Shown here piece by piece: positions 15,388 through 52,742 of a stretch of DNA of 64,000 nucleotides; position 1 is the first letter of the stretch; the number at the start of each line of letters is the position of its first letter. The notes under the pieces are model-generated. The model searched no databases, was not told where the DNA came from, and saw only the letters and a program-made list of their open reading frames with translations. The position numbers and the translations under genes were made by a program. The stretch is from Hyphococcus sp. (GTDB lineage Bacteria > Pseudomonadota > Alphaproteobacteria > Caulobacterales > Parvularculaceae). The stretch lies in NCBI GenBank assembly GCA_028289605.1, contig JANQON010000009.1:558001-622000 (forward strand), read 5' to 3'.

Positions 15388-15403
15388 AAATGATATACCA
15401 TTT
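15388..15403. promoter_or_regulatory. Region-B regulon operator, site 1 (AAATGATATACCATTT)
   Basis: An exact copy of the repeated 16-bp near-palindrome, 44 bases upstream of the membrane protein start at 15343 and downstream of the cupin gene stop. The core GATATACC fits the GTATAC-like centre known for HutC-type GntR operators. The candidate ligand is the GntR protein encoded at 31165-31956. Confidence 0.75.
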
Positions 15404-15470
15404 ACCGGCAAAAACCATCTCTGCGACAATTTATGCCGGTTCTTTGCGGGCTTTTTCCCGAAATGAGGGA

Positions 15471-16319
15471 TCAATAGCGCGGCGGTTGACGCCACGGCGC
15501 ATAGGCGAAAGCCGCCATTTCATCGGGCAAAACCGGGTCGTAAGGCGCATCAAAAGAGAACGGCGCTGAGGCCTCTGACCAGACATTGCGGTGCTCGCCG
15601 CCGACAAATCGGATTAACGCAACGCACCCCCATCGCGTGCCGAATGGGCCATGGGCGACGCCCGGCGGACGCCAGAAATAGGCGCCCGGGGCCATCGTGC
15701 CCTGCGGCCCGGTCAAAGAACCGGAAATCACATAGGCTTCTTCGACCACCGGATGGGTCTCTTGCGGGCCTTCCCTTCCCGGAGGTTCCGAGTGCGGCAG
15801 AATCATCGACAGGAAGGTGCGCTCGCCGGTTTTTTCGTCCTTCCGCAGATCTTTTCGCGATATGCCGAGATGGGCCAGCTTTGGATCGTTCAGGGTCATA
15901 TCCCAAGGCATATGGAGCGCATCAAGATGGATGATATCGCGATCCGCCTCGCTGTCGCCCGCTCCGGCGATGAATGTCGGCTCTTCTGAAAAACACGTCA
16001 GGACGACGGCGCCGCCCTCTGTCGACATAGACGTTCGCGTGATGCGGCTCGGAAAATATCCATAGTGATCATAAGAGAAAGACTCGCCGTTGCATTCGAT
16101 CTCGCCTTCGAGAACGTAGAATTCTTCACTTGCGGCGATATGCTCTACGGCTATGCGCCGCCAGCCGGGCGGATAGCGGATGATCGCCGTGCACGCGCCG
16201 GTATCCGGATCGCGGCTGAGAAACTTGTATTCCGCGTCGGGACGCGCATTGCCTGGCGCAATGCGCCGCCATGGCAGTAATTGAGCCTGGATAAACTCAA
16301 TATGCGGACGATTGAGCAT
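15471..16319 (-). CDS. Double-cupin protein, DUF4437-like
   Basis: The protein has 282 residues with two cupin-like halves. The first includes AVEHIAASEEFYVLEGEIECNGESFSYDHYGYFPS. The second includes THPVVEEAYVISGSLTGPQGTMAPGAYFWRPPGVAHGPFGT. Each repeats the bend-and-strand pattern of metal-binding cupins, and the His and Glu spacing in the second half fits a metal site. Proteins of this type (often labelled DUF4437) have no settled function; ring-cleaving dioxygenase or isomerase roles are possible. It is in the minus-strand run starting at 20166 and follows the exported VOC gene by 10 bp. Confidence 0.75.
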   Translation of the reverse strand: MLNRPHIEFIQAQLLPWRRIAPGNARPDAEYKFLSRDPDTGACTAIIRYPPGWRRIAVEHIAASEEFYVLEGEIECNGESFSYDHYGYFPSRITRTSMSTEGGAVVLTCFSEEPTFIAGAGDSEADRDIIHLDALHMPWDMTLNDPKLAHLGISRKDLRKDEKTGERTFLSMILPHSEPPGREGPQETHPVVEEAYVISGSLTGPQGTMAPGAYFWRPPGVAHGPFGTRWGCVALIRFVGGEHRNVWSEASAPFSFDAPYDPVLPDEMAAFAYAPWRQPPRY

Positions 16320-16329
16320 TGCTATGCAT

Positions 16330-16911
16330 CTACTTTGCGTCGCGACGAGGATCGCGAATCAGTTTGTTCAGTTCCACCGCATGTCCGTCGGGATCAATCA
16401 ACATGGACACCATGACTTCGATATCCCCAGCGGGCGACGGGTATTTTCGCGGTTTCGGCTCGCCGACGACTTGCACGCCGTCGACCGCGGCCGCTTTGGG
16501 AAACGCCTCTTCGAGATTGTCTACGTTGAAGAGGAGCACAATTTCTCCAGGCGTGAAGTCGGCCGCATCAGGATCGGCTTTATCCTTGTCGGTCTGGTCT
16601 AGAAACTGCCAAAGGCCGAGCATCCCGATATAGTCGTCATTCGCCTTGAGCAGCACCAGGCGCGACCTGTTCTTCCCGTCCGCGCCGGCGCGAATCGAGA
16701 GGCCCGGCGAGGTCAGTTCCTGATCATATTCGACCGTCATGCCCAAGGCGTCACGATAAAAGGCGAGCGACGTTTCGATGTCCCGAACCACCAATGTTGT
16801 GCGCCGCAAATCCAGCGGGTTGGCTGCCGTCTCCGTGGGCTCGGCCACGCCTTGGGAAATGCCGGCGATCGCAACGCCAGCTGCTGCAATCAGTAAAAGC
16901 AGAGATCTCAT
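16330..16911 (-). CDS. Exported VOC (glyoxalase/bleomycin-resistance/dioxygenase) family protein
   Basis: The protein has 193 residues from ATG 16911, where a Sec-type signal peptide begins (RSLLLLIAAAGVAIAGISQGVAEP). The frame extends upstream into the preceding gene and was not used. The mature part has the VOC layout: LRRTTLVVRDIETSLAFYRDALGMTVEYDQ near residues 35-65, and DPDGHAVELNKLI at the end. Export of a VOC protein is uncommon; most are cytoplasmic. The family includes extradiol dioxygenases and lyases that use a divalent metal. It lies between the cupin and CpcT-like genes. Confidence 0.82.
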   Translation of the reverse strand: MRSLLLLIAAAGVAIAGISQGVAEPTETAANPLDLRRTTLVVRDIETSLAFYRDALGMTVEYDQELTSPGLSIRAGADGKNRSRLVLLKANDDYIGMLGLWQFLDQTDKDKADPDAADFTPGEIVLLFNVDNLEEAFPKAAAVDGVQVVGEPKPRKYPSPAGDIEVMVSMLIDPDGHAVELNKLIRDPRRDAK

Positions 16912-16930
16912 GCGGCGCGCTCCTTTGCGT

Positions 16931-17575
16931 CTACTGTTTCCGTTTGAAAATATATCCGCCCGACGCGGGTCCCCAGACATGCCGTCCGTCGTCTGTGAAA
17001 CCGCGATCCCAGTTGGCGTATTCGTTTTTCGTCACAACGCCGAAGCTGAGGGCGTAAGATGCGCCCTTGTAGGCGTTGGGGCACCTTTCAGATTCGCTTC
17101 GCCAGAAATTTTCCGCGACGCGCTGGACCGTAATTTCGCATTCGCTGTCTTCAAGGTCCGCCGCCGACAGGTTCTCCAACGGCGCCTCGCGCCGCCAGGC
17201 GCCGCGTGCTTCGTCCGGCGATTTTAGTTTGTGCACAGTACGCTTGACGACGCCTGGTTCGACCTCGCGACTGTGGATAACACGGGCGAAATACGGCCGG
17301 TCTTTCATGGCAGGATCAAGATCAGCCGCGTCATAGCCGAGCAGCGCCTGTTCCTGATAGAACCACACGCCGTCTTTGCGCGCGGGCCAAATGCGCACAA
17401 TTTCCGCCTCGGCGACGCCATAGCGATCATCGCGCTTGGCGTGATCGAGCGTCGTGAAGCTGCCTATGGAAAGGGCCGTCAGTTCCGCGTGATGGGACTC
17501 ATCGGCCGCGGCGGCGTTCGCCCCAACGCTGACCGCCAACACCGCACTTGCAAAAGCTGTTCTCATCACTGTCAT
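16931..17575 (-). CDS. CpcT/CpeT-like secreted protein (bilin lyase-like), copy 1
   Basis: The protein has 214 residues, with a signal peptide over the first 24 or so (ending NAAAADES). The rest follows the CpcT/CpeT pattern: LTALSIGSFTTLDHAKRDD, then IWPARKDGVWFYQEQA, RPYFARV, a Cys segment DSECEITVQRV, FWRSESERCPNAYKGASYA, and a WDRGFTDDGRHVWG tail. In cyanobacteria this family attaches phycobilins to phycobiliproteins. Here export and the catabolic neighbourhood suggest bilin or another linear pyrrole binding rather than antenna assembly. The start overlaps the stop of the carboxymuconolactone-decarboxylase-like gene (ATGA), which supports 17575. Two other CpcT-like proteins occur at 21889 and 43198. 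Confidence 0.72.
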   Translation of the reverse strand: MTVMRTAFASAVLAVSVGANAAAADESHHAELTALSIGSFTTLDHAKRDDRYGVAEAEIVRIWPARKDGVWFYQEQALLGYDAADLDPAMKDRPYFARVIHSREVEPGVVKRTVHKLKSPDEARGAWRREAPLENLSAADLEDSECEITVQRVAENFWRSESERCPNAYKGASYALSFGVVTKNEYANWDRGFTDDGRHVWGPASGGYIFKRKQ

Positions 17576-18141
17576 TGGCCTTTCAGATCGAGCGCCCCGA
17601 GGGTCGCCGCTGGTCGAGGCTCCAGCGTCGTCTTTAATGTTGAATTCCAGCGGTTGAGAAATCCGAACATCGCAATGACGCCGACGATTTCGATGACTTC
17701 GTCATCATCAAAGTGCCGTTGCAACGTCCTGAAATCGTCGTCCGTGGTTTCGTTCGGCGACATGCCCGCTTTCATCGCAACGCGGATCGCCGCCCGCTCG
17801 GCGTCAGTGAAGAGATCGCTGTCCTCAAACGACCAGACGGCGGCGATGCGTTCTGGATCGACGCCCTGATCGCGGGCGCCGTTCGCCGCGTGTGCGGCGC
17901 AGTAAAAACATCCGGCCGCCTTTGAGGTCGCCTCGCCGATAAGGCGCTTCAATCCGGCGTCCACCTTCCCGGGACCGTAGATCGCACCGACCAGCGCCGC
18001 CGCCGCATTCATCAGCGCCGGATTGCGCGCCATAATGAGTGCGTCATTAGGCGCAAACCCCATGAGCTTCTCGGCGGCGTCGATGCGATCGCGCAAGTCA
18101 GCGTCCAACGCCTCCCGGTCAAGCGGCGCGACGCGGCTCAT
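17572..18141 (-). CDS. Carboxymuconolactone decarboxylase/AhpD-like family protein
   Basis: The protein has 189 residues. The CMD/AhpD helical bundle is indicated by KLMGFAPNDALIMARNPALM and by the redox motif AAGCFYCAAHAA, with Cys78, Cys81 and His84. This Cys-x-x-Cys with a following His is the active site of AhpD-type peroxidase-related proteins. It could reduce peroxides generated by the oxidases of this regulon, or act on a ring product. It overlaps both neighbours by 4 bp, being coupled to the deacetylase-like gene upstream and the CpcT-like gene downstream. Confidence 0.87.
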   Translation of the reverse strand: MSRVAPLDREALDADLRDRIDAAEKLMGFAPNDALIMARNPALMNAAAALVGAIYGPGKVDAGLKRLIGEATSKAAGCFYCAAHAANGARDQGVDPERIAAVWSFEDSDLFTDAERAAIRVAMKAGMSPNETTDDDFRTLQRHFDDDEVIEIVGVIAMFGFLNRWNSTLKTTLEPRPAATLGALDLKGQ

Positions 18142-19013
18142 AGCGGCGGAAACGCATCGGCGAAGGCGCGCGCGATATCCTCGCGGCTGGCGATCCAGAT
18201 GTCGTCGCGATCGTTAATATGGTCAAAAAAGCTTTTGAGGGCGCCGATGCGGCCTGGCCGCCCAATGATCCGCAAGTGGAGGCCCAGGGACATCATTCGC
18301 GCGCCTTCCTCCGCTGCTTCGGCATGCAGCCAGTCAAAACTGTCGGTCGCGTATTGCAGCCAATCCTTTGCGGTCAGCGACGGCGCCAACCAGAATTTCA
18401 TATCGTTGGAGTCGAGCGCATAAGGCATGATAACCATCGGTTTTGCGCCGCCGCCGGTCTCAACGAGGTCCCAGAAGGGAAAATCGCCTGAGTAGTCATC
18501 CATGTGATAAAAGAAGCCTTCTTCGGCTAGGATGCGCCGCGTTTCCTCCGTATGGAGATAACGGGAGAGCCACCCGACCGGGCGCTTGCCGCAGGTCTTT
18601 TCAATAGACTGCCACCCCTTGCGGATGAATTCGCGCTCTTTGTCTTCGTCCATCCAGAACTGGTGCGCCCAACGAAATCCATGGCAACAGACTTCGTCGC
18701 CGCGCGCGACGATGGCGTCGGCGATTTGCGGCGCACGCTCCAGCGCCAGCGACGCCGCGGTCCAGGTCGCACGTATGTCGTAGTCATTGAGGAGCCTCAG
18801 GATGCGCGGAAAGCCAGCGTTGATCCCGTATTGATAATTGGACTCATTGCCGTGCATGCGGATCGGCTTTCTGGGAACAGCAGACAATTCGTCCACCGGC
18901 TCCGGCCCTTTGTCGCCGTCGCGAACGTTTTGCTCTGCGCCTTCCTCGACATTGACGACGATAGAGAGCGCGAGCTTGGCGCCGTTGGGCCAGACGAAAT
19001 CCTTTTGATCCAT
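18138..19013 (-). CDS. PuuE allantoinase / cyclic-imide-hydrolase-like member of the polysaccharide deacetylase family
   Basis: The protein has 291 residues from ATG 19013, which overlaps the SDR stop (ATGA); a TTG one codon earlier is not needed. It shows the PuuE-type variant of the NodB fold: SIVVNVEEG in place of the NodB Asp motif, RATWTAASLAL, the metal-binding pair in VCCHGFRWAHQFW (His111 and His117) and SLGLHLRIIGRPGRI near the C-terminus. Characterised members hydrolyse cyclic amides: allantoinase PuuE and, as I recall, the roughly 293-residue cyclic imide hydrolase of Pseudomonas putida. I therefore favour a cyclic amide/imide substrate over a polysaccharide. Confidence 0.82.
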   Translation of the reverse strand: MDQKDFVWPNGAKLALSIVVNVEEGAEQNVRDGDKGPEPVDELSAVPRKPIRMHGNESNYQYGINAGFPRILRLLNDYDIRATWTAASLALERAPQIADAIVARGDEVCCHGFRWAHQFWMDEDKEREFIRKGWQSIEKTCGKRPVGWLSRYLHTEETRRILAEEGFFYHMDDYSGDFPFWDLVETGGGAKPMVIMPYALDSNDMKFWLAPSLTAKDWLQYATDSFDWLHAEAAEEGARMMSLGLHLRIIGRPGRIGALKSFFDHINDRDDIWIASREDIARAFADAFPPL

Positions 19014-19849
19014 CAATGCGGCTCCTCTCCGCCCGACACGTTCATGCTTTCGCCGGTGATGTATTGCGCATCATCGGAACACAAGAACGCCACCGCGGCC
19101 GCCGTGTCCTCCGGCAAGCCGGGGCGCCGCAGCGGAATGCGATTCTTCATCGCCTCCAGATACTCCTCGACGGACGCTGCGCCGACGACCTTGGAAAAGT
19201 ATTCGTTCTGCCAGGCGCCGAGACCGGTAGTGACATGGTTCGGGCACACATTGTTGACGGTGATATTGTCCGGACCCAGTTCAATCGACGCCGAGCGGAC
19301 AAGGCCGACCAAGCCGTGCTTCGACGACGTATAGGCCTGCGCATGAGGAAAGCCCGATTTCGCCGCCTGGCTGGCGATATTGATGATGCGTCCGCCTTTT
19401 CCCTGCGCCAGCATCTGTTTCGCCGCCGCTTTCACGCCGAAAAACGAGCCAGTGAGATTAACGTCGATGACAGCGCGCCAATCGTCTTCGGTGACATCCA
19501 TCAGCGGCTTCATGATGTAACCGATGCCGGCGTTGTTCACCCAGATGTCGAGGGAGCCGTGTTCTTTGACGGCGTGCGCGGCCAAGTCTTCCATTTCCGA
19601 AAGACTGCGCACGTCGGCGACGCAAGTCGACGCCTCGCCGCCCGCATCGCGAATGTCAGCGGCGATGGCCTCCATCTCCTCAGTCGCGCCGATATGGTCC
19701 GCGCCTGTCGAGGCGTCCCGCGACTTGCCGATGTCGGAAATCACAATCGCCGCGCCTTCCGACGCAAGCCGTTTGGCGATCGCTTCGCCCAGTCCCTTTT
19801 TGCGGCCGGAACCGGTGATGACGGCGGTTTTTCCCGAAAAGCGGCCCAT
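19013..19849 (-). CDS. Short-chain dehydrogenase/reductase
   Basis: The protein has 278 residues. The nucleotide-binding loop reads VITGSGRKKGLGEAIA (residues 10-25), NNAG is at 105-108, and the catalytic set is Ser160, Tyr173 and Lys177 in INIASQAAKSGFPHAQAYTSSKHG. An extended insertion around residues 42-58 distinguishes it from the shortest classical SDRs. It would oxidise a secondary alcohol or reduce a ketone with NAD(P). It is second in the minus-strand operon after the HapK-like gene (2 bp gap) and is coupled by ATGA overlap to the cyclic-imidase-like gene. Confidence 0.93.
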   Translation of the reverse strand: MGRFSGKTAVITGSGRKKGLGEAIAKRLASEGAAIVISDIGKSRDASTGADHIGATEEMEAIAADIRDAGGEASTCVADVRSLSEMEDLAAHAVKEHGSLDIWVNNAGIGYIMKPLMDVTEDDWRAVIDVNLTGSFFGVKAAAKQMLAQGKGGRIINIASQAAKSGFPHAQAYTSSKHGLVGLVRSASIELGPDNITVNNVCPNHVTTGLGAWQNEYFSKVVGAASVEEYLEAMKNRIPLRRPGLPEDTAAAVAFLCSDDAQYITGESMNVSGGEEPH

Positions 19850-19851
19850 GA

Positions 19852-20166
19852 CTATTTGACGTCTTCGCTCAAGATAAAGACGAGATCATCCGTCATCGCC
19901 TGAAACTCGGCGGCGACCTTTTGCATGGTTTCGCTCCCCACATCCTGGCCGAATTGATCCATGTCATTGACGTCGATGGTCTCAAAATAGGCGTAAGGGG
20001 GCGCCTCCTCGGAACCAAGCAATCCCGTGGACTTAAAAACGTCGAAGCTGGCGATGGAGCCGAGCCCGTTGACCGTTGGAATGTCGACCGTTTTCGCCCA
20101 GGTCTCATAATCGCTGACCGAAACGCCCGGTTTCAGGTTAAAAAGGGCTAGAATGCGCGTGGCCAT
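19852..20166 (-). CDS. HapK/RedY-like dimeric alpha/beta-barrel protein
   Basis: The protein has 104 residues: ILALFNLKPGVSVSDYETWAKTVDIPTVNGLGSIASFDVFKSTG, then PPYAYFETIDVNDMDQFGQDVGSETMQKVAAEFQ. This matches my memory of the REDY-like HapK family, first named from the Hahella prodigiosin (tripyrrole) cluster and built as a small ferredoxin-like barrel. Its biochemical role is not settled. It is the first gene of the minus-strand operon running to the cupin gene, and an operator copy lies 51 bases upstream in the divergent promoter region. The pyrrole-pigment association is one of several hints about the substrate. Confidence 0.65.
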   Translation of the reverse strand: MATRILALFNLKPGVSVSDYETWAKTVDIPTVNGLGSIASFDVFKSTGLLGSEEAPPYAYFETIDVNDMDQFGQDVGSETMQKVAAEFQAMTDDLVFILSEDVK

Positions 20167-20217: not shown

Positions 20218-20233
20218 AAATGATATATCAATT
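20218..20233. promoter_or_regulatory. Region-B regulon operator, site 2 (AAATGATATATCAATT)
   Basis: A two-mismatch variant of the repeated palindrome, between the divergent HapK-like gene (start 20166, minus strand) and the methyltransferase gene (start 20294, plus strand). The symmetric TGATATATCA core is perfect. It could regulate both directions. Confidence 0.7.
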
Positions 20234-20293: not shown

Positions 20294-21532
20294 ATGGCGA
20301 ACGAAACGAACACCCCCAATTCCTATGACGGGCCGCCCGATTACCGCGTCGTGGGCCGCCACGGCATGTATCCTGAGGTCAGCCACGACGAAATCGCGCG
20401 ATTTAATTTCCTGGCGCACATGAACCGACATCTTTCGACCAAGGTCATGCCCGGGGTCGCCGACGCCTATGGAGCCCGCGTCGAACCGGCCTTTCGCAAA
20501 ACGAATAGCCGCGATTTCGCGGATCGTCATGAAGTGCGCAAGGCGTTGTTGGCCGACCCGATGTTTCAGTGGTGGTCGGCGCTGCGCCGCGCCACCATGG
20601 AACAGCGTCAACAAGCGGGACGCTGGGTTACGCTTCGCCAGGCGGATGCGATTAACGCACGGGCGGCCGAACTGACCGACGGCGACAATCGGCTGATGCT
20701 CGACGCCGATCTTGAAATCCCGCGATATGTCGCCGCCATCGATCATCACTGCATGCCGGGCAGTTATCACACGGAGCTGGCGCAAGGGGACGTCACCGGC
20801 GCGGCGAACTACGACATCGGCCTGTTTGCGACGACGGGCGGTATGCTCGGCCGTTACAACGACGGCGGCGGCGTCGCCGTTGCGAAATGGGTCAAAGAGA
20901 ATATGCCGGACTTCAATCCGAAACGCATTCTCGATATCGGTTGCGGCCTTGGGCACAATGTTTTGCCCATCGCAGAAGCTTTCCCGGATGCGGAAATTGT
21001 CGCTGTCGATGTCGGCGCGCCCATGCTGCGATACGGGCTGGCGCGCGCTAAAACCATGGGCGTCGACAATGTGCGGTTTGTGCAAGGCGATGTTTCGAAA
21101 CTCGCAGAGTTCGAGGATGAGAGTTTCGACTGGATCCAGTCGACCATGTTCCTGCACGAAACGAGCTATCGCTCAATGCAGGAGATCTTCGCTGAAACGC
21201 AACGCCTTTTGAAGCCCGGCGGCGTTGTGTTGCATGTGGAGCAGCCGCAATATTCAGACGACATGCCGCTTTTTGAACAAGCTATGCGCGACTGGGATGC
21301 GTTCTATAACAATGAACCCTTCTGGACGAAGATGCATGAGGTTGATCTGGACGCCTATATGGCCAGGGCCGGATTTGCGCCAGAAACACTGATTCACGGC
21401 GGCGTCGCCGCTGTCGTCGATGCGGACGTTTTCCCGGAGGCGGCGAACGACGACGAACAGGAAGATTACGGCCGCAAAGCCGCCTGGCATGTCATCGGCG
21501 CGCGAAAAGAACCGGCGGGCGCAGTGCAATGA
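20294..21532 (+). CDS. SAM-dependent methyltransferase
   Basis: The protein has 412 residues with a GGGAG ribosome site 8 bases before the ATG. The class I methyltransferase domain occupies roughly residues 190-330: ILDIGCGLGHN (about 211-221), EIVAVDVGAPML, FVQGDVSKL, SFDWIQSTMFLHE and LKPGGVVLHVEQP. The N-terminal 190 residues, including MPGSYHTELAQGDVTGAANYDIGLF, are not a domain I recognise. The acceptor is unknown. It is followed, with an ATGA overlap, by a small coiled-coil protein gene and then by the DUF7282-CpcT lipoprotein gene. Confidence 0.88.
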   Translation: MANETNTPNSYDGPPDYRVVGRHGMYPEVSHDEIARFNFLAHMNRHLSTKVMPGVADAYGARVEPAFRKTNSRDFADRHEVRKALLADPMFQWWSALRRATMEQRQQAGRWVTLRQADAINARAAELTDGDNRLMLDADLEIPRYVAAIDHHCMPGSYHTELAQGDVTGAANYDIGLFATTGGMLGRYNDGGGVAVAKWVKENMPDFNPKRILDIGCGLGHNVLPIAEAFPDAEIVAVDVGAPMLRYGLARAKTMGVDNVRFVQGDVSKLAEFEDESFDWIQSTMFLHETSYRSMQEIFAETQRLLKPGGVVLHVEQPQYSDDMPLFEQAMRDWDAFYNNEPFWTKMHEVDLDAYMARAGFAPETLIHGGVAAVVDADVFPEAANDDEQEDYGRKAAWHVIGARKEPAGAVQ

Positions 21533-21885
21533 CCGGGATCGATCCCCTCGCCCTTTCGAGCGCCAAGGCCAAGGGCAAACGGCCTTACTTTCTTGGCGAT
21601 CCGGATGTCGAACGACTGATGACCATCGTCATGGCCGTTGCCCAGGAAGTTTCAGTCCTGCGCGAGCGCCTCGATACGGTCGAGCGGTTGCTCGACAAAA
21701 ACGGAACCATTTCCCGCAGCGATATCGAAAACTTTGAACCGACCAAGGCGGAGGCCGACGAGCGCGGCGCCTGGACGCAGGAGTATCTCAACCGGATCCT
21801 GCGCATTCTCCAGCAGGAGCGCGAGGCGCTCGCCGCTAAAGATCAGTCATCGGAAGATATCGCTGAAGAACTGGCGAAGGACTAA
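21529..21885 (+). CDS. Small coiled-coil protein of unknown function
   Basis: The protein has 118 residues, with no signal peptide and no family I recognise. Residues 28-60 (ERLMTIVMAVAQEVSVLRERLDTVERLLDKNG) have a heptad pattern that suggests a coiled coil. A second helical, charged segment follows (AWTQEYLNRILRILQQEREALAA). Its start overlaps the methyltransferase stop, so it may be a subunit or partner of that enzyme. Nothing in the sequence suggests catalysis. Confidence 0.75.
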   Translation: MTGIDPLALSSAKAKGKRPYFLGDPDVERLMTIVMAVAQEVSVLRERLDTVERLLDKNGTISRSDIENFEPTKAEADERGAWTQEYLNRILRILQQEREALAAKDQSSEDIAEELAKD

Positions 21886-21888
21886 ACC

Positions 21889-26067: not shown

Positions 26068-26126
26068 ACGCGTTATTCCGCTTTCCAATTATTCGGCTTG
26101 ACGAATTAGAGCTTGGCCGCGCCCCC

Positions 26127-37378: not shown

Positions 37379-37382
37379 CGCG

Positions 37383-45339: not shown

Positions 45340-45349
45340 CCTCTTCTCC

Positions 45350-46147
45350 CTATTCAGCGTCCAAAAACGTTAGAATCTCCGCCGCCGTCGCTTCCGCTGC
45401 TTCGTCGAGGACGGCGCGTTTGATATCGAGGCGTTCAACGATCGAGGCGGACGGCATAACGTTCGCCGCCGCGCGCGTTGCGTCGAGCAATCCCGACTGT
45501 GTCGCAATGATCCGTGTCGGCGTCTTCACCTCTGGCAGGCGGTCTTCCCAAGGATATGAAAACGCAGCAATGAAAGCTTCGTTCATACGGGCGCCGGGAC
45601 GCAATTGTTCAACGAACATTTCAAACGCCCTGTCCGTTGGCTGACCTTCAAGGCGCTTGACGAACCCGGAAGCCCATGGGCCTTCAAGAGAAGCAATGTC
45701 CGGCGTGATTACGAGCGGGCCCATCCTGGACAGAAACGCAGTGCGTTTTTCCTCGTCGAACGCCGGAACGTCGATAAGCACAGCGCGGCGTACGCGCTCC
45801 GGCCTGTCAATGCATAGCTGCGCCGCCACAAGGCATCCAGTGTGAAAGCCGCAAATGTCGACCGGCGCGCTGTCGGAGCGATCATCAATCACCGACGCCA
45901 TCGCCTCAGCGAACATTTCGATGGACGCAGGCTCGAGCGTGGGATCGGATCCCCCATAGCCCGGGTAATCAGGGGCAAAAACCCGCCGTGTTGTCCCGAC
46001 ATGCTGCATAACGCCGGTGAAGGCGAGACCGCTGAACGGCGCCGGGTGAAAGCAATAAAGATCCGGCGCACTTGCGTTTTCAGACGCCGCAGCGCGCCAG
46101 TGAATCTGCCCGAGCGCGCCTTGGGAGTATCCCTTTGTTGTCTTCAT
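45350..46147 (-). CDS. Alpha/beta-hydrolase-fold protein with His at the nucleophile position (GFHTG)
   Basis: The protein has 265 residues from ATG 46147, which overlaps the MFS stop (ATGA); the frame extends 300 bases further but that is the antisense of the MFS gene end. Motifs are DLYCFHPAPFSGLAF, VFAPDYPGYGGSDP and the elbow PVDICGFHTGCLVAAQLC, with His102 replacing the nucleophile. The usual catalytic His region reads VERLDIKRAVLDEAAE, so that His is missing as well. Together with the paralogues at 22938 and 37383 this defines a His-elbow subfamily in one regulon. Confidence 0.83.
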   Translation of the reverse strand: MKTTKGYSQGALGQIHWRAAASENASAPDLYCFHPAPFSGLAFTGVMQHVGTTRRVFAPDYPGYGGSDPTLEPASIEMFAEAMASVIDDRSDSAPVDICGFHTGCLVAAQLCIDRPERVRRAVLIDVPAFDEEKRTAFLSRMGPLVITPDIASLEGPWASGFVKRLEGQPTDRAFEMFVEQLRPGARMNEAFIAAFSYPWEDRLPEVKTPTRIIATQSGLLDATRAAANVMPSASIVERLDIKRAVLDEAAEATAAEILTFLDAE

Positions 46148-47484
46148 TCGTCGCTGTCGCCCAGCCGCTTCATTTGCTTTAGATAAAGGCGGCGCGTAAT
46201 CGGGATGAGCACGAGCGGGATGACGCCGTAAATGATCGGCACCGCCGCGACGGCGAGGTTGAGATTGTCCTCGCCGAAAACGCGCGTCGACAAACTGCCC
46301 ACCGTCGTCGGGCCAAGAAACAGGCCCGAGAGCGAAATCGTCATGTAATACAGCGCCAGCACCTGCCCCCGAATTTGCGCCGGCGTAATCAGAAGCAACG
46401 CCGTCACGCCGACGGCGCTGACCATGCCGATTCCAACCGTGTTCACGCACAAGACCGCATAGGCGATGACGCCCGTCGGCATGAGCATGGCGACGGCGCC
46501 GGTCGGGACCATGATGAGGAATCCGATAACAAGAAGCCGAAACGGCGCATCGCGAACGCCGGCCTGCATCCAGCGATCCGAGAGATAGCCCATCAGCAAG
46601 ACGTTGGCGGGACCGATTATCAAAAGAGCGACGCCGTTGATAAACGCATACTGCTCACGCTCCCAGCCCCAGGTGCGTTCAAATGTCGACGGCAAATATC
46701 CCTGACTGTAGGCGATGATCGTCATCACCATAACGAGCGAAACGAAGGTGAAATAAGTGGCGCCGTTCTTCGCCACATAAGTCCACGCTTTAAAAATGCT
46801 GGCGCCCTGAAGCGCCGTATCACCGCCTACATGGGGGCGTCTTTCGGGCTCTTTCACGAAGAAAAAATACACAGCCAGCAACAACCCCGGCAGACCGACC
46901 GTCATGAAGACGAGCTGCCAGGGCGCCAGCAGCCCTAGCATCGGCAGGGTTACGCCGTTTGTCGTCTTCGCCCAAAGCAGCACGCCGCCGCCGATCAACG
47001 AGGCAATACCGGCGCCAAGCGTCAGCGCTGCGGTGTAGAATGCGATCGGTTTGCCGCGCTGTTCTTCCGGAAAACTGTCGGCAATCATGGAGAATGCAGA
47101 CGGGCTCAAAACAGATTCCCCGGCGCCGATGGTCATCCGGGCAAAGAACAACTGCCAAAAATTGGCGGCAAGCCCGGAAACCGCCGTCGCCGCAGACCAC
47201 ACCGCCATGCCGATGCCGACGATCCAGGTGCGCCGCCAGTTATCGACGAACCATCCGATAAAAAGCCCGCTGAATGCGTAAATCAGGCCGAAAGCAGGCC
47301 CCAGGATCAAACCGATCTGTTCGTCGGTTAGGCCTAGGTCTTCTTTAATCGGTTCGATGAGCAGACCAAGGATGTACCGGTCGACGAAGCTGAAAACATA
47401 CGCCATCGTCAGCATCGCAACGAGAAACCATGCGACGCTCGCGGGCGGATAAGGTTTGGACGGCGCTGAGGCTTCGTCGTTCAT
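46144..47484 (-). CDS. MFS transporter, spinster-like
   Basis: The protein has 446 residues with about twelve membrane segments. The first helix region FVDRYILGLLIEPIKEDLGLTDEQIGLILGPAFGLIYAFSGLFIGWFVD and GAGESVLSPSAFSMIADSFPEEQRGKPIAFY are typical of the spinster-like MFS branch often found next to TonB receptors in aerobic degraders. It would move the substrate or an intermediate across the inner membrane. It is coupled to the GFHTG hydrolase gene by ATGA overlap and follows the VOC gene by 11 bp. Confidence 0.93.
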   Translation of the reverse strand: MNDEASAPSKPYPPASVAWFLVAMLTMAYVFSFVDRYILGLLIEPIKEDLGLTDEQIGLILGPAFGLIYAFSGLFIGWFVDNWRRTWIVGIGMAVWSAATAVSGLAANFWQLFFARMTIGAGESVLSPSAFSMIADSFPEEQRGKPIAFYTAALTLGAGIASLIGGGVLLWAKTTNGVTLPMLGLLAPWQLVFMTVGLPGLLLAVYFFFVKEPERRPHVGGDTALQGASIFKAWTYVAKNGATYFTFVSLVMVMTIIAYSQGYLPSTFERTWGWEREQYAFINGVALLIIGPANVLLMGYLSDRWMQAGVRDAPFRLLVIGFLIMVPTGAVAMLMPTGVIAYAVLCVNTVGIGMVSAVGVTALLLITPAQIRGQVLALYYMTISLSGLFLGPTTVGSLSTRVFGEDNLNLAVAAVPIIYGVIPLVLIPITRRLYLKQMKRLGDSDE

Positions 47485-47495
47485 CTCGGCTCCGA

Positions 47496-47936
47496 CTAAA
47501 GCAGGTAAATCACAACAAGATTGCCGTCGAAATCGACAATGCCGATTTCGCGGCCAGTGCGGCCGTCATGGGTGACAAGTTTACCCTCTTCGTAGACGTG
47601 AAGACCAAGAGCGCGGGCGCCGGCCATCACCGCGTCGGGATCGGCGGTTTCAAGGACAATGGCGCTGCGTCGCGGAAACGGAACCGGCGCCAATTCAACA
47701 TTCTTGACCTCGCTAAGGGCCATCACCCGCGGCTGGTCCGGCGCGGAGAGAATGCAAAATCCAATCTCGGCTTCCTTGGGTATTTCAAAGACCGGAAATG
47801 AATAACTGTCAGGATTGTGGCCTTTCTGAAACGTCACCTCAAACCCCAACACATCGCGATAAAAAGTCAGCGCCCGCTCTATGTCCGAGACGATGAAATT
47901 CGCCCGTTGAAACCGAACTTGAGGCTTTCCCGTCAT
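47496..47936 (-). CDS. VOC family protein
   Basis: The protein has 146 residues and one VOC unit pair: VRFQRANFIVSDIERALTFYRDVLGFEVTFQKGHN at the N-terminus and REIGIVDFDGNLVVIYLL at the end. The Glu metal ligand usual near the C-terminus seems replaced in VVIYLL. It has no signal peptide. It belongs to the minus-strand run with two more VOC proteins and the MDR reductase. Possible roles include epimerase, lyase or dioxygenase; none can be chosen. Confidence 0.85.
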   Translation of the reverse strand: MTGKPQVRFQRANFIVSDIERALTFYRDVLGFEVTFQKGHNPDSYSFPVFEIPKEAEIGFCILSAPDQPRVMALSEVKNVELAPVPFPRRSAIVLETADPDAVMAGARALGLHVYEEGKLVTHDGRTGREIGIVDFDGNLVVIYLL

Positions 47937-47948
47937 CTCATCGTCTCC

Positions 47949-49040
47949 CTAAATCCATTCGTCGGGCTCGCCGCGGACTGAGCAACACTGCACGCCGACA
48001 TTTTGGCCGTAGTAAAGATTAGCGAGCGCGCGCGGCATGTTCTGAAATCCGTCGACAATGTCCTGGACGGGTTGCAATTTCCCGTCCTTGATCCATCCGG
48101 TCATGTCGTCCATCACCGCGTTCCATCGCGGTAAGTGATTGTAGACAAAAAACCCCTGCATCCGGCTGTCCGTTCTGCGCAGCTGTGTATAATTTGACAG
48201 CTTGAACGGAACGTCGCGCGTGTATTCGCTGATCGAGCCGCACAAAACGATTCGAGCATGCATGCGGAGGCGATCGAGACATGCCTCAAGCGTTTCCCCG
48301 CCGACATTGTCGAAGTAAAGATCAATTCCGTCAGGGCGGAGCGCGTCAAGACGTTCACCTATGTCTTCAGACTTGTAGTCGATCGCCGCCGAACAGCCGT
48401 GCTCGAGAATGAAGCGGCATTTGTCCGGGCCGCCGGCGATACCGACAACGTCGCAACCAATGACGTTCGCCGCCATTTGACTCACCATAGAGCCGACGCC
48501 GCCGGCCGCGCCCGACAACACCATCAGATCGCCGGGCCTCGGGTCGCCGCAGCCGAAAAACCCAGCATGTGCAGACAACCCCGTCATGCCAAGGACGCCG
48601 GCGCCCAATGCCGCGGGCAATCCGTTACTCGGCATCCGGAAAAACTTTTCCTGATCCGTCATGGCCGACACTTTGTAGGTGCGCCATCCCATTTGCCCTT
48701 GAACCATCTCGCCTTCGCGCCAATCCGGGTGGCGGGACTTGACGACCTGCGCAACGCCGCGGCCGTGAATGACGTCGCCCGGCTGCAACACGCGTTCGCC
48801 GGCGGCGCCCGTTCCTTGCATGTAAAACCGCATCACGGGCGCAAGACCGAGATAATACGTCTTTAGCAGAACCTCGCCATCGCCGGGCTCAGGAATGTCG
48901 CCGACCGTCCATTCAAAATCATCGGGCGTGACATTGCCGACAGGGCGATTTTTCACGCGCCATTCGAACAGCGCTTCATCATCAATCGACTTGTCCCTAG
49001 ACAGGGACTCAAATGCTGAAAGCGCGTCGGCCGCGATCAT
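47949..49040 (-). CDS. NADP-dependent oxidoreductase, zinc-independent MDR family (second copy)
   Basis: The protein has 363 residues. The N-terminus is about 25 residues longer than in the copy at 36365. Family features are YYLGLAPVMRFYMQGTG, GVLGMTGLSAHAGFFGCGDPRPGDLMVLSGAAGGVGSMVSQMAANVIGCDVVGIAGG and DLYFDNVGGETLEACLDRLRMHARIVLCGSISEY. These match prostaglandin/2-alkenal reductase-type enzymes that reduce conjugated double bonds. The start overlaps the stop of the VOC gene at 49037 by 4 bp. Confidence 0.92.
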   Translation of the reverse strand: MIAADALSAFESLSRDKSIDDEALFEWRVKNRPVGNVTPDDFEWTVGDIPEPGDGEVLLKTYYLGLAPVMRFYMQGTGAAGERVLQPGDVIHGRGVAQVVKSRHPDWREGEMVQGQMGWRTYKVSAMTDQEKFFRMPSNGLPAALGAGVLGMTGLSAHAGFFGCGDPRPGDLMVLSGAAGGVGSMVSQMAANVIGCDVVGIAGGPDKCRFILEHGCSAAIDYKSEDIGERLDALRPDGIDLYFDNVGGETLEACLDRLRMHARIVLCGSISEYTRDVPFKLSNYTQLRRTDSRMQGFFVYNHLPRWNAVMDDMTGWIKDGKLQPVQDIVDGFQNMPRALANLYYGQNVGVQCCSVRGEPDEWI

Positions 49041-49513
49041 TTAGGATGAACCCGGACAACCTGGTTGACTTCGAAAAAGTAACCGTCGAGGTCCCAGAAA
49101 GAACATCCGATCATGTCTTTTTGGGCCCCGTCAGCGCCGGTGACGGACCATTCGCGCGGCTCGCAATGAATGCGGGAACCAAGCGATCGCGCCCGTTCCA
49201 CCGCTCCCGCCGCATCTTCGGATGCGACAACAAAAATCGGCGCGCCGAAGCTGATTTCTGTTGGCAGTGTTTCCGGCGCGTCTTGCTTGGGATCGATCCA
49301 CTCGAGCAAGCCGATCATGCCGATGAGGTCGTGTTTGCATTTCAGAATAACGAGCCGGGTCTTGTCGCCTTTCTTGCCCGCCGCCAATTGGCTGCCGGAC
49401 AGGGTGAAAGGCGTGTCCATCCAGCGCGTCATGCCGAATACGGTTTCATACCAGTGCGCCGCCTTGTCGGCGTCGCGAACCATCATTGTCGTGCGTTTGA
49501 TTTCATCTGACAT
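49037..49513 (-). CDS. VOC family protein
   Basis: The protein has 158 residues: KRTTMMVRDADKAAHWYETVFGMTRWMDTPFTLSG, RLVILKCKHDLIGMIGLLEWIDPKQ and the terminal IGCSFWDLDGYFFEVNQVVRV, whose Glu fits the VOC metal ligand. The KANDDYIGMLGLWQF segment of the exported VOC protein at 16330 is closely similar to KCKHDLIGMIGLLEW here, so the two are probably paralogues. It lies between another VOC gene and the MDR gene. Confidence 0.87.
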   Translation of the reverse strand: MSDEIKRTTMMVRDADKAAHWYETVFGMTRWMDTPFTLSGSQLAAGKKGDKTRLVILKCKHDLIGMIGLLEWIDPKQDAPETLPTEISFGAPIFVVASEDAAGAVERARSLGSRIHCEPREWSVTGADGAQKDMIGCSFWDLDGYFFEVNQVVRVHPK

Positions 49514-49522
49514 GGCCGAGCC

Positions 49523-50068
49523 TCAATATTCGTACATTTCGACGCGCACGCCGTTCGGATCGAGGACGGCCATTGAAGTTGACTTTCCGCTGCCGGATTT
49601 TCCCAAGGGCGCGACGATGGGAACGCCCATCGCTTCAGCGCGGCGCGCAATCTCTGCGATATTCTGCACGCGATGGGCCAGAATCAATTCTCCTGCGCGA
49701 GAGGCGCGCGCGCCGTCTTGATCAAACGGCGTCGGTTCAGCGCCCTCAATTTGGATAAAGCTGACGCCCGCCCGCAGATCGGGATTCTCAATCGTCCACC
49801 CCGCCGGCGCCATGGATACGTAGCGCAGGACCTTGTTGTCGCCGACGGCGCCGACGACCTGTCGGGACTTCTCCGCCGTGATGGTCGATTCGCCAATCAC
49901 GGCGTAGCCAAGCAACTCTCGGTAGAACGCCACGCAGGCGTCAACGTCATTGCTTACAAAGCTCGCCGACCGCAAGGTTCCCTCGATCGGCGTATCGCTT
50001 TGCGCAAGCGCGTCGGGCGTTGCGGTAACGGTGACGGCGGCGATGAGAATTGAAATGAAGGCGCGCAT
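49523..50068 (-). CDS. Exported VOC family protein
   Basis: The protein has 181 residues from ATG 50068, preceded by GGGAGA; the long frame upstream is antisense of the receptor gene. A signal peptide ends near DALAQSD (residue 22). The VOC part reads LRSASFVSNDVDACVAFYRELLGYAVIGES and closes with SMAVLDPNGVRVEMYEY (Glu ligand). This is the second exported VOC protein in the regulon. It is separated from the receptor gene stop by 124 bp that contain an imperfect hairpin without a T-run, so read-through from the receptor promoter is possible. Confidence 0.84.
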   Translation of the reverse strand: MRAFISILIAAVTVTATPDALAQSDTPIEGTLRSASFVSNDVDACVAFYRELLGYAVIGESTITAEKSRQVVGAVGDNKVLRYVSMAPAGWTIENPDLRAGVSFIQIEGAEPTPFDQDGARASRAGELILAHRVQNIAEIARRAEAMGVPIVAPLGKSGSGKSTSMAVLDPNGVRVEMYEY

Positions 50069-50149
50069 GATCGTTCTCCCTAGCGCCCCCGCCAATAAAC
50101 GTTCGGCGGGCGCACGGCGCCGCGCCGATCTGAATACGCATGGTCGATT

Positions 50150-50175
50150 GTTGGCCGGCGGTTTCGCCGACCAAC
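50150..50175 (-). other. Imperfect hairpin between the TonB receptor and the downstream VOC operon
   Basis: GTTGG and CCAAC form the outer stem and CGGCG/CGCCG the inner stem, with one mismatch and the loop GTTT. No T-run follows on the minus strand, so it is not a standard terminator. It may lower or stabilise the downstream part of the receptor transcript. Confidence 0.4.
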
Positions 50176-50192
50176 GTGGTTTTGGTATCGAG

Positions 50193-52670
50193 CTAGAACT
50201 TCGCGCGAACCACAACACCCCAGCGGGCGCCGTTGCGGTTGTTATATTGGAAGCCGCGGGACTGACCAGCGGACGCCAGCTCGAATACTGTCGAGGGCGT
50301 GACGCCCGCAACCATGAAGCTGCCGTTGCCCGGGCTCGGATCGATAAACCGGAGCACGCCAATCGCCGCGTCCTCGTTGGTCAAGTTCTTCCCGTAAAAC
50401 GCCAAGCTGTACTTTTCGTCCAACTCCAAAGTGATTCTCGCATCGAGCTCGAAGGCCTCTCCGGTCTCGGCGAGGTTTTGGACTTGAGCAAAACGGCTGG
50501 AAAGATAATTGCCGTTGACTGAAAACGTAGTCGACAGTCGGTCGTTATTCTCGATCCTGTAATCGGCGAAGAACGACGCCTGGTGGCGCGCCTGCCGCGG
50601 CAACTCCTGGCCAACCAACGAACTGTCTCCAAATACGGCGCCTTGAGTCGCTTCGGTGCCGGCTGAGAACTCAGTATCGGTCCAGGCGTAGGTGCCGCCA
50701 ATAGTGAGGCCAGGCAACGCGTTCGGCGTGAAAGACGTCTCCAGCTCGAGGCCGAAAATGTCTACATCGCCGACGTTCGCCGTCACGGACCCTGTCGTTG
50801 TATTGGCGCCAAGCGCGGCCAGGTTTTCCGTCAACTGATAATCGGAAAGCGTTGAGTAGAACCCAGCCAGATTGAGCAGCCATTGATCATCGCAAAAGAC
50901 GTTCTTTGAACCGAGCTCAAACTGCCAGTTGGTTTCTTCTTCAAACGTCCCGAAACCGAACTGAAAGCCTTGCGCGCCATTAAACCCGCCCGGCTTCGTG
51001 CCGCGGGCGGCTGATGCGTATAGCAGGTTCGCATCCGAAGCTTGATAGTTCAGAATGAAGCGAGGCGTCCATGCCGTGAAGGTCGCTTCGACCTCGTCAT
51101 TCACGCCGTCAAGTTGAACGATCTGGCGGGTGTCAAAATCGACAACCTGTTGGGTGATCGTTTCCTCGGCCCAACGCAGTTCCGCCGTCGCCGTCAAGCG
51201 ATCGGTAAGATCGTAATACAATGACCCGAAGACCGAAATGTTTTCGGTTTCCGTATCGGTTAGGTCGGCGGGTCCGTAGTCAAACGGCACTAGTGGGACG
51301 ACAAAAAACTGTCCTAGCGCAGCCGCAATTTCAGCGTTCGCTTGATTGAACGAGTCCAGAGCAGCTTGCTCAAACTGGCCGTCCTCAAAGCGACCCAAGA
51401 GATCGCGATCGCGGTCAACGGATTTGAAGTAGTAGCCGCCCAATCGCCAGCGGAAGGGTCTATCCTGCGGCGAGTCGAAGCGCGCTTCCGCAACGAATGT
51501 TTCCGTTTCGTCGTCGTCCGTCGTCGTGAAGTCAAACGGGATGAGCCCCACGCCGAAAGGCGATCCCGGCGGGCCCAGGGGAAACGGTCCGAACAGGTGC
51601 GCCGTGCCGAAAGAGGTCAGCTGACCGTCGGAATCGAGTTCGTCTCGGAAGTTCTCTTTTGTGTAGCCGATGGTCGTGAAGAAGTTGTACCCATCGGCGA
51701 ACTCGAAATTGCTGTTGAGGGCGTAAAATTCTTCTTCGCGTTCAAGGCCGCCGCCCTCGCCCAGCGTATTTGACAGCTGATCGGATCCGCTTGGCGTCGG
51801 GAAGCTGGTCGGCACGACGCCGTCGAAGAAGGGCTGTACGCCGCCAAGTTGCGTGCCGCCTGGAACGTTGATGTTCAGGTCTTCAAATCCGAGCAGACCG
51901 ATTGGAAAGTGGCCGTCGTCATCCTCATTGTAGGCGGCGCGAGCGGTAATTTCCCAATTGTCGGTAGGAAGAAACCGAATAACGCCAGAAACGGACCGGG
52001 ACGATTCGTTACCAACGGAAGGATTGGGATTCGATTCAACGTCAAACTCGCTGTCGAATTCGTAAATTCGTCCTGACAGCGAGAAAAAGAGCTTGTCGTC
52101 GATAATCGGTCCTCGGATATTACCAAGGAACTGCATCAGCCCGTCGGCGCCGAATTCCGCCGACACTTCGCCTTCGAATTCGTTGGTAGGTTGACGCGTC
52201 GTGATGCTGATCGCGCCCGAATACGTGTTCCGGCCAAAGAGTGCGCTTTGCGGCCCCTTGATGATCTCGATACGGTCAATGTCGCCGAAGTTGATGGAAC
52301 GAATGGATTGCGGGACGTTTACGCCGTCGATGAAAACGGAGACCCCGGAAGCGCCAAGAATGTTCGCCTGCCCTCGAATGATGGGACGGTCAAACTGACG
52401 GCCGAACGGTGAATCAAAAATGAAGCCGGGCGTTCGCCGCGACAGCTCCTCAATATCTTTGATCCCTTGCTCAAACAGGTCCTCCGCGCCGAATGCGGTA
52501 ACCGCCACGGGAACATCCTGAATGTTCTCTTCCTTTTTCCGAGACGTCACGATGATCGTATCGCGCCGCGAGTCCCGGATTTCCTCCACGTCCTGCGCCG
52601 CCGCGGGGACGCTGACCGCCGTCGCCAAGGCCGCCGCAGCCGCCGTGCTCAGCAAATATCCGCTTTTCAT
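50193..52670 (-). CDS. TonB-dependent outer-membrane receptor
   Basis: The protein has 825 residues from ATG 52670, with GGGAGGG nine bases upstream. A signal peptide ends near SVPAAAQDVEE. The plug reads DTIIVTSRKKEENIQDVPVAVTAFGAEDLFEQGIKDIEELSRRTPGFIFDSP and RIEIIKGPQSALFGRNTYSGAISITTRQP. The protein ends VVVRAKF with the usual terminal Phe. It is the same broad receptor type as 28718-30964 but not a recent duplicate. An operator copy lies 56 bases upstream. It may lead an eight-gene operon continuing to 44197 (VOC, VOC, MDR, VOC, MFS, GFHTG hydrolase, nitrilase-like). Confidence 0.95.
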   Translation of the reverse strand: MKSGYLLSTAAAAALATAVSVPAAAQDVEEIRDSRRDTIIVTSRKKEENIQDVPVAVTAFGAEDLFEQGIKDIEELSRRTPGFIFDSPFGRQFDRPIIRGQANILGASGVSVFIDGVNVPQSIRSINFGDIDRIEIIKGPQSALFGRNTYSGAISITTRQPTNEFEGEVSAEFGADGLMQFLGNIRGPIIDDKLFFSLSGRIYEFDSEFDVESNPNPSVGNESSRSVSGVIRFLPTDNWEITARAAYNEDDDGHFPIGLLGFEDLNINVPGGTQLGGVQPFFDGVVPTSFPTPSGSDQLSNTLGEGGGLEREEEFYALNSNFEFADGYNFFTTIGYTKENFRDELDSDGQLTSFGTAHLFGPFPLGPPGSPFGVGLIPFDFTTTDDDETETFVAEARFDSPQDRPFRWRLGGYYFKSVDRDRDLLGRFEDGQFEQAALDSFNQANAEIAAALGQFFVVPLVPFDYGPADLTDTETENISVFGSLYYDLTDRLTATAELRWAEETITQQVVDFDTRQIVQLDGVNDEVEATFTAWTPRFILNYQASDANLLYASAARGTKPGGFNGAQGFQFGFGTFEEETNWQFELGSKNVFCDDQWLLNLAGFYSTLSDYQLTENLAALGANTTTGSVTANVGDVDIFGLELETSFTPNALPGLTIGGTYAWTDTEFSAGTEATQGAVFGDSSLVGQELPRQARHQASFFADYRIENNDRLSTTFSVNGNYLSSRFAQVQNLAETGEAFELDARITLELDEKYSLAFYGKNLTNEDAAIGVLRFIDPSPGNGSFMVAGVTPSTVFELASAGQSRGFQYNNRNGARWGVVVRAKF

Positions 52671-52726
52671 GCTCAAAACCCTCCCGTTAAGCCTCTTTCC
52701 GCCATCGGTCCGCCGAACCCGTGCGA

Positions 52727-52742
52727 AAATGATATACCATTT
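52727..52742. promoter_or_regulatory. Region-B regulon operator, site 10 (AAATGATATACCATTT)
   Basis: An exact consensus copy 56 bases upstream of the receptor start at 52670. The plus-strand YCII-like gene begins 174 bases away on the other side, so control in that direction is less certain. Confidence 0.75.

Follow-up and report, generated by a model that had tools for sequence, protein, structure and literature searches.

What joins the genes of a stretch of the Hyphococcus sp. genome in which one short, near-palindromic sequence recurs in the gaps between them? The stretch, called the window throughout, comprises 64,000 nucleotides (contig JANQON010000009.1, positions 558,001 to 622,000 of the forward strand) and carries eleven 16-base copies of this motif, starting at 15388, 20218, 26127, 28604, 31004, 31022, 32004, 35424, 39738, 43100 and 52727. 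As argued below, the degenerate palindrome AAATGRTATAYCATTT is probably the operator of GntR1, a regulator encoded at 31165..31956 on the plus strand, and GntR1 would repress a catabolic regulon of about 50 genes for a nitrogen-containing compound that yields substituted cyclic imides.

The copies are highly uniform and confined to one region of the genome. Seven are exactly AAATGATATACCATTT, with that at 28604 on the opposite strand, and genome-wide this sequence occurs only these seven times. Measured against AAATGRTATAYCATTT, the sites at 20218 and 26127 have one mismatch, that at 39738 two and that at 31004 three. With up to three mismatches allowed, the window contains 19 strand-matches at 10 places, compared with a mean of 0.10 and a maximum of 2 in dinucleotide-shuffled sequence. 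By base composition, AAATGRTATAYCATTT is expected about 0.0005 times in the genome (4.29 Mb, 59% GC); it is seen eight times, all in one stretch of contig C17. Only one further strong copy exists beyond the window, a twelfth site 2.25 kb to its left (G000:C17:555746) that forms the perfect palindrome AAATGATATATCATTT. Divergent genes surround it: in one direction a symporter gene with VOC and DUF1330 genes, in the other an isochorismatase gene and then PuuE-type genes (symporter and VOC were named by eye). The twelve sites together span 55 kb. At seven weaker places in the genome (up to three mismatches), the surrounding 3-kb loci encode nothing related to a regulon protein, and the closest match among them (C8:4597, two mismatches) falls inside an unrelated reading frame. 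Two 20-kb stretches outside the island (L020 on the right and L021 on the left) contain nothing better than four mismatches. When a looser pattern is applied to the genome, many more two-mismatch matches appear, and a control yields about one third as many.

Under a sensible choice of start codons every site is intergenic, since the apparent overlaps at 39738, 43100 and 52727 arise from over-long open reading frames and disappear with the next start codon. Within the window, the distance from a site to the start codon it faces is 10 to 89 nt, except at GntR1, whose start codon is 128 and 146 nt away from its two sites. Seven of the ten site-bearing intergenic regions are divergent (20218, 26127, 31004/31022, 35424, 39738, 43100 and 52727). 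Judged by orientation and spacing, with operons assumed, the sites head 19 gene runs comprising about 51 genes, eight of which belong to the two runs of the twelfth site. An initial annotation of this DNA had reported eleven intergenic sites in 37 kb, six or more of them identical and five of the ten intergenic regions divergent, tying together about 35 genes. The sites, their identity and, once the three reading frames are re-started, their intergenic placement are borne out; the divergent regions had been undercounted, and the extent is corrected to twelve sites, 55 kb and about 50 genes. A similar density of the motif elsewhere, which that annotation had named as grounds for abandoning the regulon, was found neither in the genome nor in the class-wide sample described next, so the regulon is not refuted. 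As a separate observation, ATG is present on both strands of the operator, and open reading frames that begin MVYHL or MIYHL start inside it (window 43100-43115; L125:10001). Mechanical gene callers can therefore start inside the operator, and automatic annotation may mis-start genes.

Exact AAATGRTATAYCATTT occurs in 26 of 299 genomes of the order, distributed over 12 of 54 genera, compared with a single genome for a reversed-pattern control; in a class-wide sample of 190 genomes it was found only in the genome studied here and in none of the other 189, two of which are from the same order. For comparison, we used 60 stretches drawn from all other motif genomes but G208, G227 and G262 (22 of 25), adding a Hyphomonas polymorpha locus and excluding the Marinicaulis locus L042 from site counts as a probable duplicate of G020. 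Gene starts in the relatives were labelled with the island's own proteins only, with tblastn matches covering less than 30% of the query and overlapping weaker matches dropped; starts within 600 nt of a site entered the position count, and those within 130 nt the flank alignment. In G139 and G020, of the same genus, almost the whole gene series of the island is preserved and the sites stand in equivalent positions; in other families the island occurs in rearranged pieces. The stretches and the Hyphomonas locus together contain 116 sites with at most one mismatch, only three of which fall inside a homologue match. A site precedes the DUF1838 gene in 14 genomes, the isochorismatase gene in 13 and in Hyphomonas, the methyltransferase gene in 11, the HapK-like gene in 10, the membrane-protein gene in 8 and the gene of TonB receptor 1 in 7 and in Hyphomonas. 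Distances from site to gene are mostly below about 110 nt, with second sites 200-600 nt before the isochorismatase and TonB receptor 1 genes, and 19 sites have no labelled gene start within 600 nt.

Sites located on contigs other than that of GntR1 precede the same families. They stand before a DUF1838 paralogue with a weak Pfam match (L094) and a VOC gene (L098) in G165, before a TonB receptor gene in G135 (L104), and before the membrane-protein gene in G173 (L125), G237 (L131) and G138 (L136). On GntR1 contigs, further sites precede DUF1838 (L089) and a YCII-like match together with a related membrane protein (L117). The motif is thus a conserved regulatory element. Separately, in G297 the two ends of contig C1 (L090 and L093) carry the same segment of isochorismatase, PuuE, DUF1330, motif and membrane protein with identical match values, which suggests a recent duplication.

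Which protein reads the motif? Two transcription factors are found among the island's sites and runs, both of the GntR-UTRA type. GntR1 combines a GntR DNA-binding domain with a UTRA effector domain, both above the Pfam cut-offs (PF00392, 77.5 bits against 27; PF07702, 119.1 bits against 23.8), and its nearest solved relatives include YvoA/NagR and DasR. Its gene is flanked by three sites, placed on both sides: a weak secondary operator at 31004..31019 (+), which lies 18 bp from the strong operator at 31022..31037 (+) between TonB receptor 1 (-) and GntR1 (+), and the operator at 32004..32019 (+) beyond its 3′ end. Through the 31022 operator GntR1 probably controls its own gene. Homologues of GntR1 (E ≤ 1e-40) occur in 59 of the 299 genomes, including every one of the 26 with the motif, and 240 genomes have neither; in the window's own genus, GntR1 is present in 3 of 27 genomes and the motif in the same 3. 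The association has a Fisher p of 2e-21 and a product of within-genus probabilities of 4e-13, the latter treating genomes in a genus as independent and neither value being fully corrected for phylogeny. Thirty of the 59 GntR1 loci were checked. All 17 of the closest have a site with at most three mismatches within 1.5 kb (16 with at most two); among the 13 remoter loci none has a site with at most two mismatches and seven have one at three. Three of the 30 loci carry the symmetric variant AAAAGATATATCTTTT. Because of the complete co-occurrence and the adjacency of the site, GntR1 is preferred as the reader of the motif. A palindromic site near gene starts that is kept together with its regulator would mark a GntR-type operator, and this combination is found here, with adjacency confined to close GntR1 homologues. 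As a separate observation, AAATGATCTATCTTTA or a one-base variant lies about 580-650 nt from six distant GntR1 homologues of genus g12 (L067, L070 and L076, and as the reverse complement L072, L073 and L075); it is possibly a diverged operator.

GntR1 resembles the repressors HutC, NagR (YvoA), DasR and PhnF in its GntR winged helix and UTRA domain and in a palindromic 16-bp site near gene starts. Unlike HutC and PhnF, it scores below both curated equivalog cut-offs (HutC TIGR02018, 117.1 bits against 220; PhnF TIGR02325, 117.7 against 156.8), and here twelve sites in 55 kb serve about 50 catabolic-looking genes; AAATGRTATAYCATTT also differs from the operators known for NagR, DasR and HutC. 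The initial annotation had called the regulator HutC-type, which holds for the subfamily (GntR plus UTRA), though the scores fall short of these two cut-offs. Its proposal of one regulon tied to the GntR gene at 31165 gains support from the comparison with relatives (26 of 26 motif genomes, 17 of 17 closest loci), with binding itself predicted from sequence comparison.

The proposed regulon builds on what is observed: the sites are specific, stand conserved before the same genes and co-occur with GntR1, and the genes can be assigned to enzyme families. We infer from this that GntR1 binds the sites and represses rather than activates, that an effector acts on it and which genes form operons, as well as the pathway's substrate and sequence of steps, as follows. 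A GntR1 dimer would bind sites near the promoters of the 19 gene runs, repressing them and its own gene, until an effector taken up with the substrate or made from it binds the UTRA domain and lifts repression. A nitrogen-containing compound would be imported through the two TonB receptors and processed by exported and cytoplasmic oxidoreductases; three PuuE-type hydrolases would open cyclic imide (or similar cyclic amide) rings, and the isochorismatase-type hydrolase and amidases would remove ammonia. The resulting substituted dicarboxylic acids would pass through LeuCD-type hydration, CoA transfer and carbon-carbon cleavage to central metabolites. The predicted chemistry thus reads as a passage from cyclic imide or amide to half-amide, substituted dicarboxylate, hydroxy acid and CoA ester, ending in carbon-carbon cleavage.

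Several observations weigh against this account. The DUF1838, HapK-like, methyltransferase and CpeT families have no step in the proposed pathway, and the best matches to PuuE, RipB, RipC and mesaconate or glutarate CoA-transferase all lie below curated cut-offs. A GntR1 homologue without the exact motif occurs in 33 of the 273 motif-less genomes. In several motif genomes, mainly of family f5 (G257, G173, G237, G128, G063 and G144), the fetched stretches show no site with two mismatches or fewer next to GntR1, so autoregulation is not universal. The counts of sites before genes are inflated because exact sites or GntR1 guided the choice of stretches, and conservation inside the 16 bp of the aligned rows is by construction, the rows having been picked for their fit to the palindrome. 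Finally, the motif is associated about as strongly with a homologue of the second regulator, GntR2 (22 of 26 motif genomes, p 6e-21), and with DUF1838 (24 of 26, p 3e-21) as with GntR1. Co-occurrence therefore separates the candidates only weakly and mainly shows that motif and island travel together.

The genes next to the operators supply the enzymatic content of the proposal. The initial annotation had described most of them as being of unknown function; most in fact have a family assignment. Downstream of the twelfth site, the plus strand at 248..2230 encodes a carbon-nitrogen hydrolase (open reading frame 248-1444, with the real start probably near 335) and an enoyl-CoA hydratase family protein (1451-2230). 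An amidase, a PaaK-like CoA ligase and two MmgE/PrpD proteins follow at 2233..7708 (-) with no site of their own here; a site precedes MmgE2 in two relatives. The operator at 15388..15403 (+) lies 45 nt before the membrane-protein gene (14651-15343, -) that heads an HpcH/MaoC/acyl-CoA dehydrogenase/CoA-transferase run, the whole of 9714..15343 (-) encoding two CoA-transferases, an acyl-CoA dehydrogenase, a RipB-like hydratase, a RipC-like lyase and the membrane protein. Between the HapK-like gene (-) and the methyltransferase gene (+), the operator at 20218..20233 (+) keeps its position in 10-11 genomes. To its left, 15471..20166 (-) encodes HapK-like, SDR, PuuE-type ring hydrolase (18138-19016), CMD, CpeT family 1 (16931-17575), VOC and cupin proteins, and to its right, 20294..22920 (+) encodes the methyltransferase, a 118-aa protein and CpeT family 2 with a DUF7282 domain. 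An alpha/beta hydrolase, a 262-aa protein with a signal-like N-terminus and an MFS transporter occupy 22938..26088 (-). The operator at 26127..26142 (+) separates the MFS transporter (-) from a flavin amine oxidase family protein (26219..27649, +), whose N-terminus resembles, by eye, a twin-arginine translocation (Tat) export signal; a scan of viral contigs found no relative of this amine oxidase.

Toward the centre of the island, the operator at 28604..28619 (-) lies 21 nt before the DUF1838 gene (27699..28583, -), a position kept in 14 genomes, this gene being among those most often preceded by the operator in relatives; TonB receptor 1 is encoded at 28718..30994 (-). Beyond GntR1, the operator at 32004 stands 45 nt before a gene for a FAD-binding oxidoreductase fused to an aldehyde dehydrogenase (32064..35090, +). 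This fusion is matched as one piece in G020, G139, G015 and G195 and as two pieces in most other relatives, and its aldehyde dehydrogenase part matches PDB 4h7n at 499 bits, compared with 235 bits for the next solved structure. The operator at 35424..35439 (+) lies between DUF1330 (35095..35388, -) and a plus-strand group at 35478..38763 comprising VOC, zinc alcohol dehydrogenase, alpha/beta hydrolase and DUF3598-like genes, the last a weak match below cut-off. An HMG-CoA-lyase-like carbon-carbon lyase (38747..39682, -) and a family III CoA-transferase (39784..40989, +) diverge from the operator at 39738..39753 (+), and the LeuC-like gene of the LeuD- and LeuC-type hydratase pair (40991..43011, -) diverges from CpeT family 3 (43198..44187, +) at the operator 43100..43115 (+). 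The last operator, 52727..52742 (+), separates a YCII-domain gene (52829..53314, +) from the run of TonB receptor 2 at 44197..52670 (-), which also encodes three VOC proteins, an alcohol dehydrogenase, an MFS protein, an alpha/beta hydrolase and a carbon-nitrogen hydrolase. Transport genes of the island include two TonB receptors, MFS transporters and the symporter, with a third TonB receptor at 59432, right of the sites. N-termini that look by eye like export signals are found on, among others, the flavin amine oxidase-like protein, the carbon-nitrogen hydrolases, DUF1838 and the CpeT proteins.

Some of these assignments pass curated thresholds and others do not. The LeuCD pair exceeds the cut-offs of NF009116 (637.7 against 531) and leuD TIGR00171 (195.7 against 116.25) but not that of leuC TIGR00170 (496.8 against 560.25), and the HMG-CoA-lyase-like protein passes NF004283 (273.4 bits, cut-off 246). 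Among the three PuuE-type hydrolases, PuuE′ is recognised solely by similarity to the other two; the two proteins that are scored reach 119 and 248 bits against the TIGR03212 allantoinase cut-off of 424.6. The closest PDB relative of the isochorismatase-family protein is N-carbamoylsarcosine amidohydrolase. RipB-like and RipC-like proteins score 229.5 against 340 (NF038241) and 236.2 against 375 (NF038242). There are three family III CoA-transferases in the island. Three proteins match CpeT (PF06206) at 79-107 bits, well over the Pfam gathering cut-off of 21. Profile comparison did not link the HapK, DUF1330 and YCII proteins to one another; in the same comparison, the CpeT1, CpeT2, VOC1, cupin and CMD families had one to six sequences including the query, too few for strong statements. 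A structure model of DUF1838 built from a two-sequence alignment had a mean predicted local distance difference test (pLDDT) score of 30.6, too low to be of use.

Known pathways resemble parts of this set. With the itaconate (Rip) and citramalyl-CoA pathways the island shares CoA-transferases, a MaoC-type hydratase best matched by RipB/Ich and a lyase best matched by RipC; unlike the Rip pathway, its proteins score below the cut-offs and their genes are embedded with ring-hydrolase, amidase and TonB genes. The cyclic imide pathway (imidase, half-amidase) and the dimethylmaleate hydratase/dimethylmalate lyase route resemble the steps predicted here, in which a ring is opened, the half-amide hydrolysed and, after LeuCD-type hydration, a carbon-carbon bond cleaved; the ring-opening candidates are here PuuE/polysaccharide-deacetylase-type proteins. 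Similar gene sets occur on plasmids of other bacteria. Those of Sphingobium sp. TomTYG65 (L140) and Sphingomonas sp. JE1 (L141) cluster an isochorismatase gene, two PuuE-type genes, two LeuCD pairs, a CoA-transferase gene and an HMG-CoA-lyase-like gene, and both also hold an isocitrate-lyase/PEP-mutase family gene. A Burkholderia plantarii plasmid (L139) has isochorismatase, two PuuE-type, LeuCD and isocitrate-lyase family genes with a GntR gene 30% identical to GntR1. Dimethylmalate lyase is a member of the isocitrate-lyase superfamily, which would fit dialkylmalates. The operator is absent from the five plasmid regions compared, the best match having three mismatches. Two of the three plasmids with the isochorismatase/PuuE/PuuE′/LeuCD core (L139, L140 and L141) are typed as conjugative and one as mobilizable, so the catabolic module may spread horizontally.

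What compound does the pathway consume? We give about an even chance to a nitrogen ring compound other than a tetrapyrrole, such as a hydantoin, lactam, alkaloid or simple cyclic imide; the CpeT, DUF1838 and HapK-like proteins would then be carriers or enzymes that have nothing to do with pigments. Ureides and N-carbamoyl compounds are the substrates of the best-characterised proteins related to the PuuE-type and isochorismatase-type hydrolases, 7 of the 26 motif genomes lack CpeT, and the core genes are also carried by plasmids of soil and plant bacteria, where the five regions compared contain neither a CpeT nor a DUF1838 match. Against such a substrate, LeuCD, RipB/RipC-like and CoA-transferase genes point to alkyl-substituted dicarboxylates, which would not be expected from simple hydantoins, and all three CpeT genes of the genome lie within the island.

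A more specific proposal, which we regard as tentative and somewhat doubtful, is that the regulon provides the complete aerobic import and mineralisation of linear tetrapyrroles (phycobilins, or chlorophyll- or haem-derived bilins) under one GntR repressor. After TonB-dependent uptake, exported CpeT-type and DUF1838 proteins would handle the bilin, and its oxidative cleavage would release the rings as alkyl maleimides and succinimides. The three PuuE-type proteins would open these imides, and deamidation, LeuCD hydration and lyase cleavage would then lead to pyruvate and acyl-CoAs. When bilins and haem are broken down oxidatively, alkyl maleimides such as hematinic acid arise, which a route through imide, half-amide and substituted maleate would consume; two branches of lyases would suit two types of ring. 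No CpeT-family gene of the genome lies outside the island, which has three, 36 of the 46 CpeT genomes of the order have GntR1, and among 14 control genomes the family was found only in Synechococcus elongatus. The island CpeT proteins resemble the cyanobacterial CpeT/CpcT phycobiliprotein lyases in exceeding the Pfam cut-off, with CpeT3 weakly matching the phycocyanobilin lyase CpcT (PDB 4o4o, E 5e-4). They differ in lying in an alphaproteobacterial catabolic island and in their export-signal-like N-termini, and a lyase role is putative. To our knowledge, CpeT proteins outside cyanobacteria have no known function. This weighs against a tetrapyrrole substrate, as do the 10 of 46 CpeT genomes without GntR1, the 7 motif genomes without CpeT, the plasmid cores lacking CpeT and DUF1838 matches, and the fact that no enzyme with known bilin activity was recognised in the island. 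A relationship of DUF1838 to CpeT was considered and rejected, since profile comparison did not support it (probability 0.3-2.5%); this too counts against the tetrapyrrole reading.

Returning to the motif, other readers and other roles have to be weighed. It is unlikely that the operator belongs to GntR2 (8975..9721, +) or to a regulator encoded outside the island. GntR2 belongs to the same subfamily as GntR1 and is encoded within the island, with homologues in 22 of the 26 motif genomes, but GntR1 is present in all of them, and G015, G115, G165 and G279 (the last with five exact sites) have no GntR2 homologue at E ≤ 1e-40, a weaker one being found in G015 and G165. Moreover, there is no motif at the GntR2 gene, compared with the three sites flanking GntR1.

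It is improbable that the sites are bound by an activator, whether GntR1 or another factor, or that the motif is a promoter element of an alternative sigma factor. They do lie at promoter distance, and many would serve two divergent genes; a palindromic site, however, has no direction, and the characterised members of the GntR/HutC subfamily are mostly repressors. In the flank alignment (133 unique of 135 rows) neither a -35-like hexamer at fixed spacing nor any other conserved element borders the 16 bp, with only a slight preference in the adjacent 2-3 bases, and an extended promoter or sigma-site reading was rejected because the flanks are not conserved. It is hardly credible that the copies represent a mobile or selfish repeat dispersed through the island with no regulatory role, for although they are near-identical and locally dense, they keep their position before orthologous genes across families and genera, are absent from the 189 other class-sample genomes and have no counterpart of similar quality in this genome outside the 55-kb island.

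The surroundings of the regulon contain further loci. Right of the island, a MACPF (perforin-domain) protein is encoded beside a LamG-domain protein (window 54899-57595, outside the regulon sites), and a LacI regulator adjoins a large TonB receptor at 57972-62794 as a separate locus. To the left, three consecutive genes at L019:8428-13876 resemble, by eye, those of an ECF sigma factor, a FecR-type anti-sigma protein and a large TonB receptor that has a signalling domain at its N-terminus. The window has no Rfam family at the gathering threshold and no tRNA.

Under the preferred reading, in which GntR1 governs the twelve sites, the island places a known type of regulator over an undescribed catabolic pathway; among the open-licence PubMed Central matches listed, no such bacterial pathway or regulon was found. 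With one short operator marking about 50 genes, the pathway can be read from genomes together with members that would go unconnected in annotation. Should its substrate be a bilin or another tetrapyrrole, the regulon would provide genes for degrading some of Earth's most abundant pigments.

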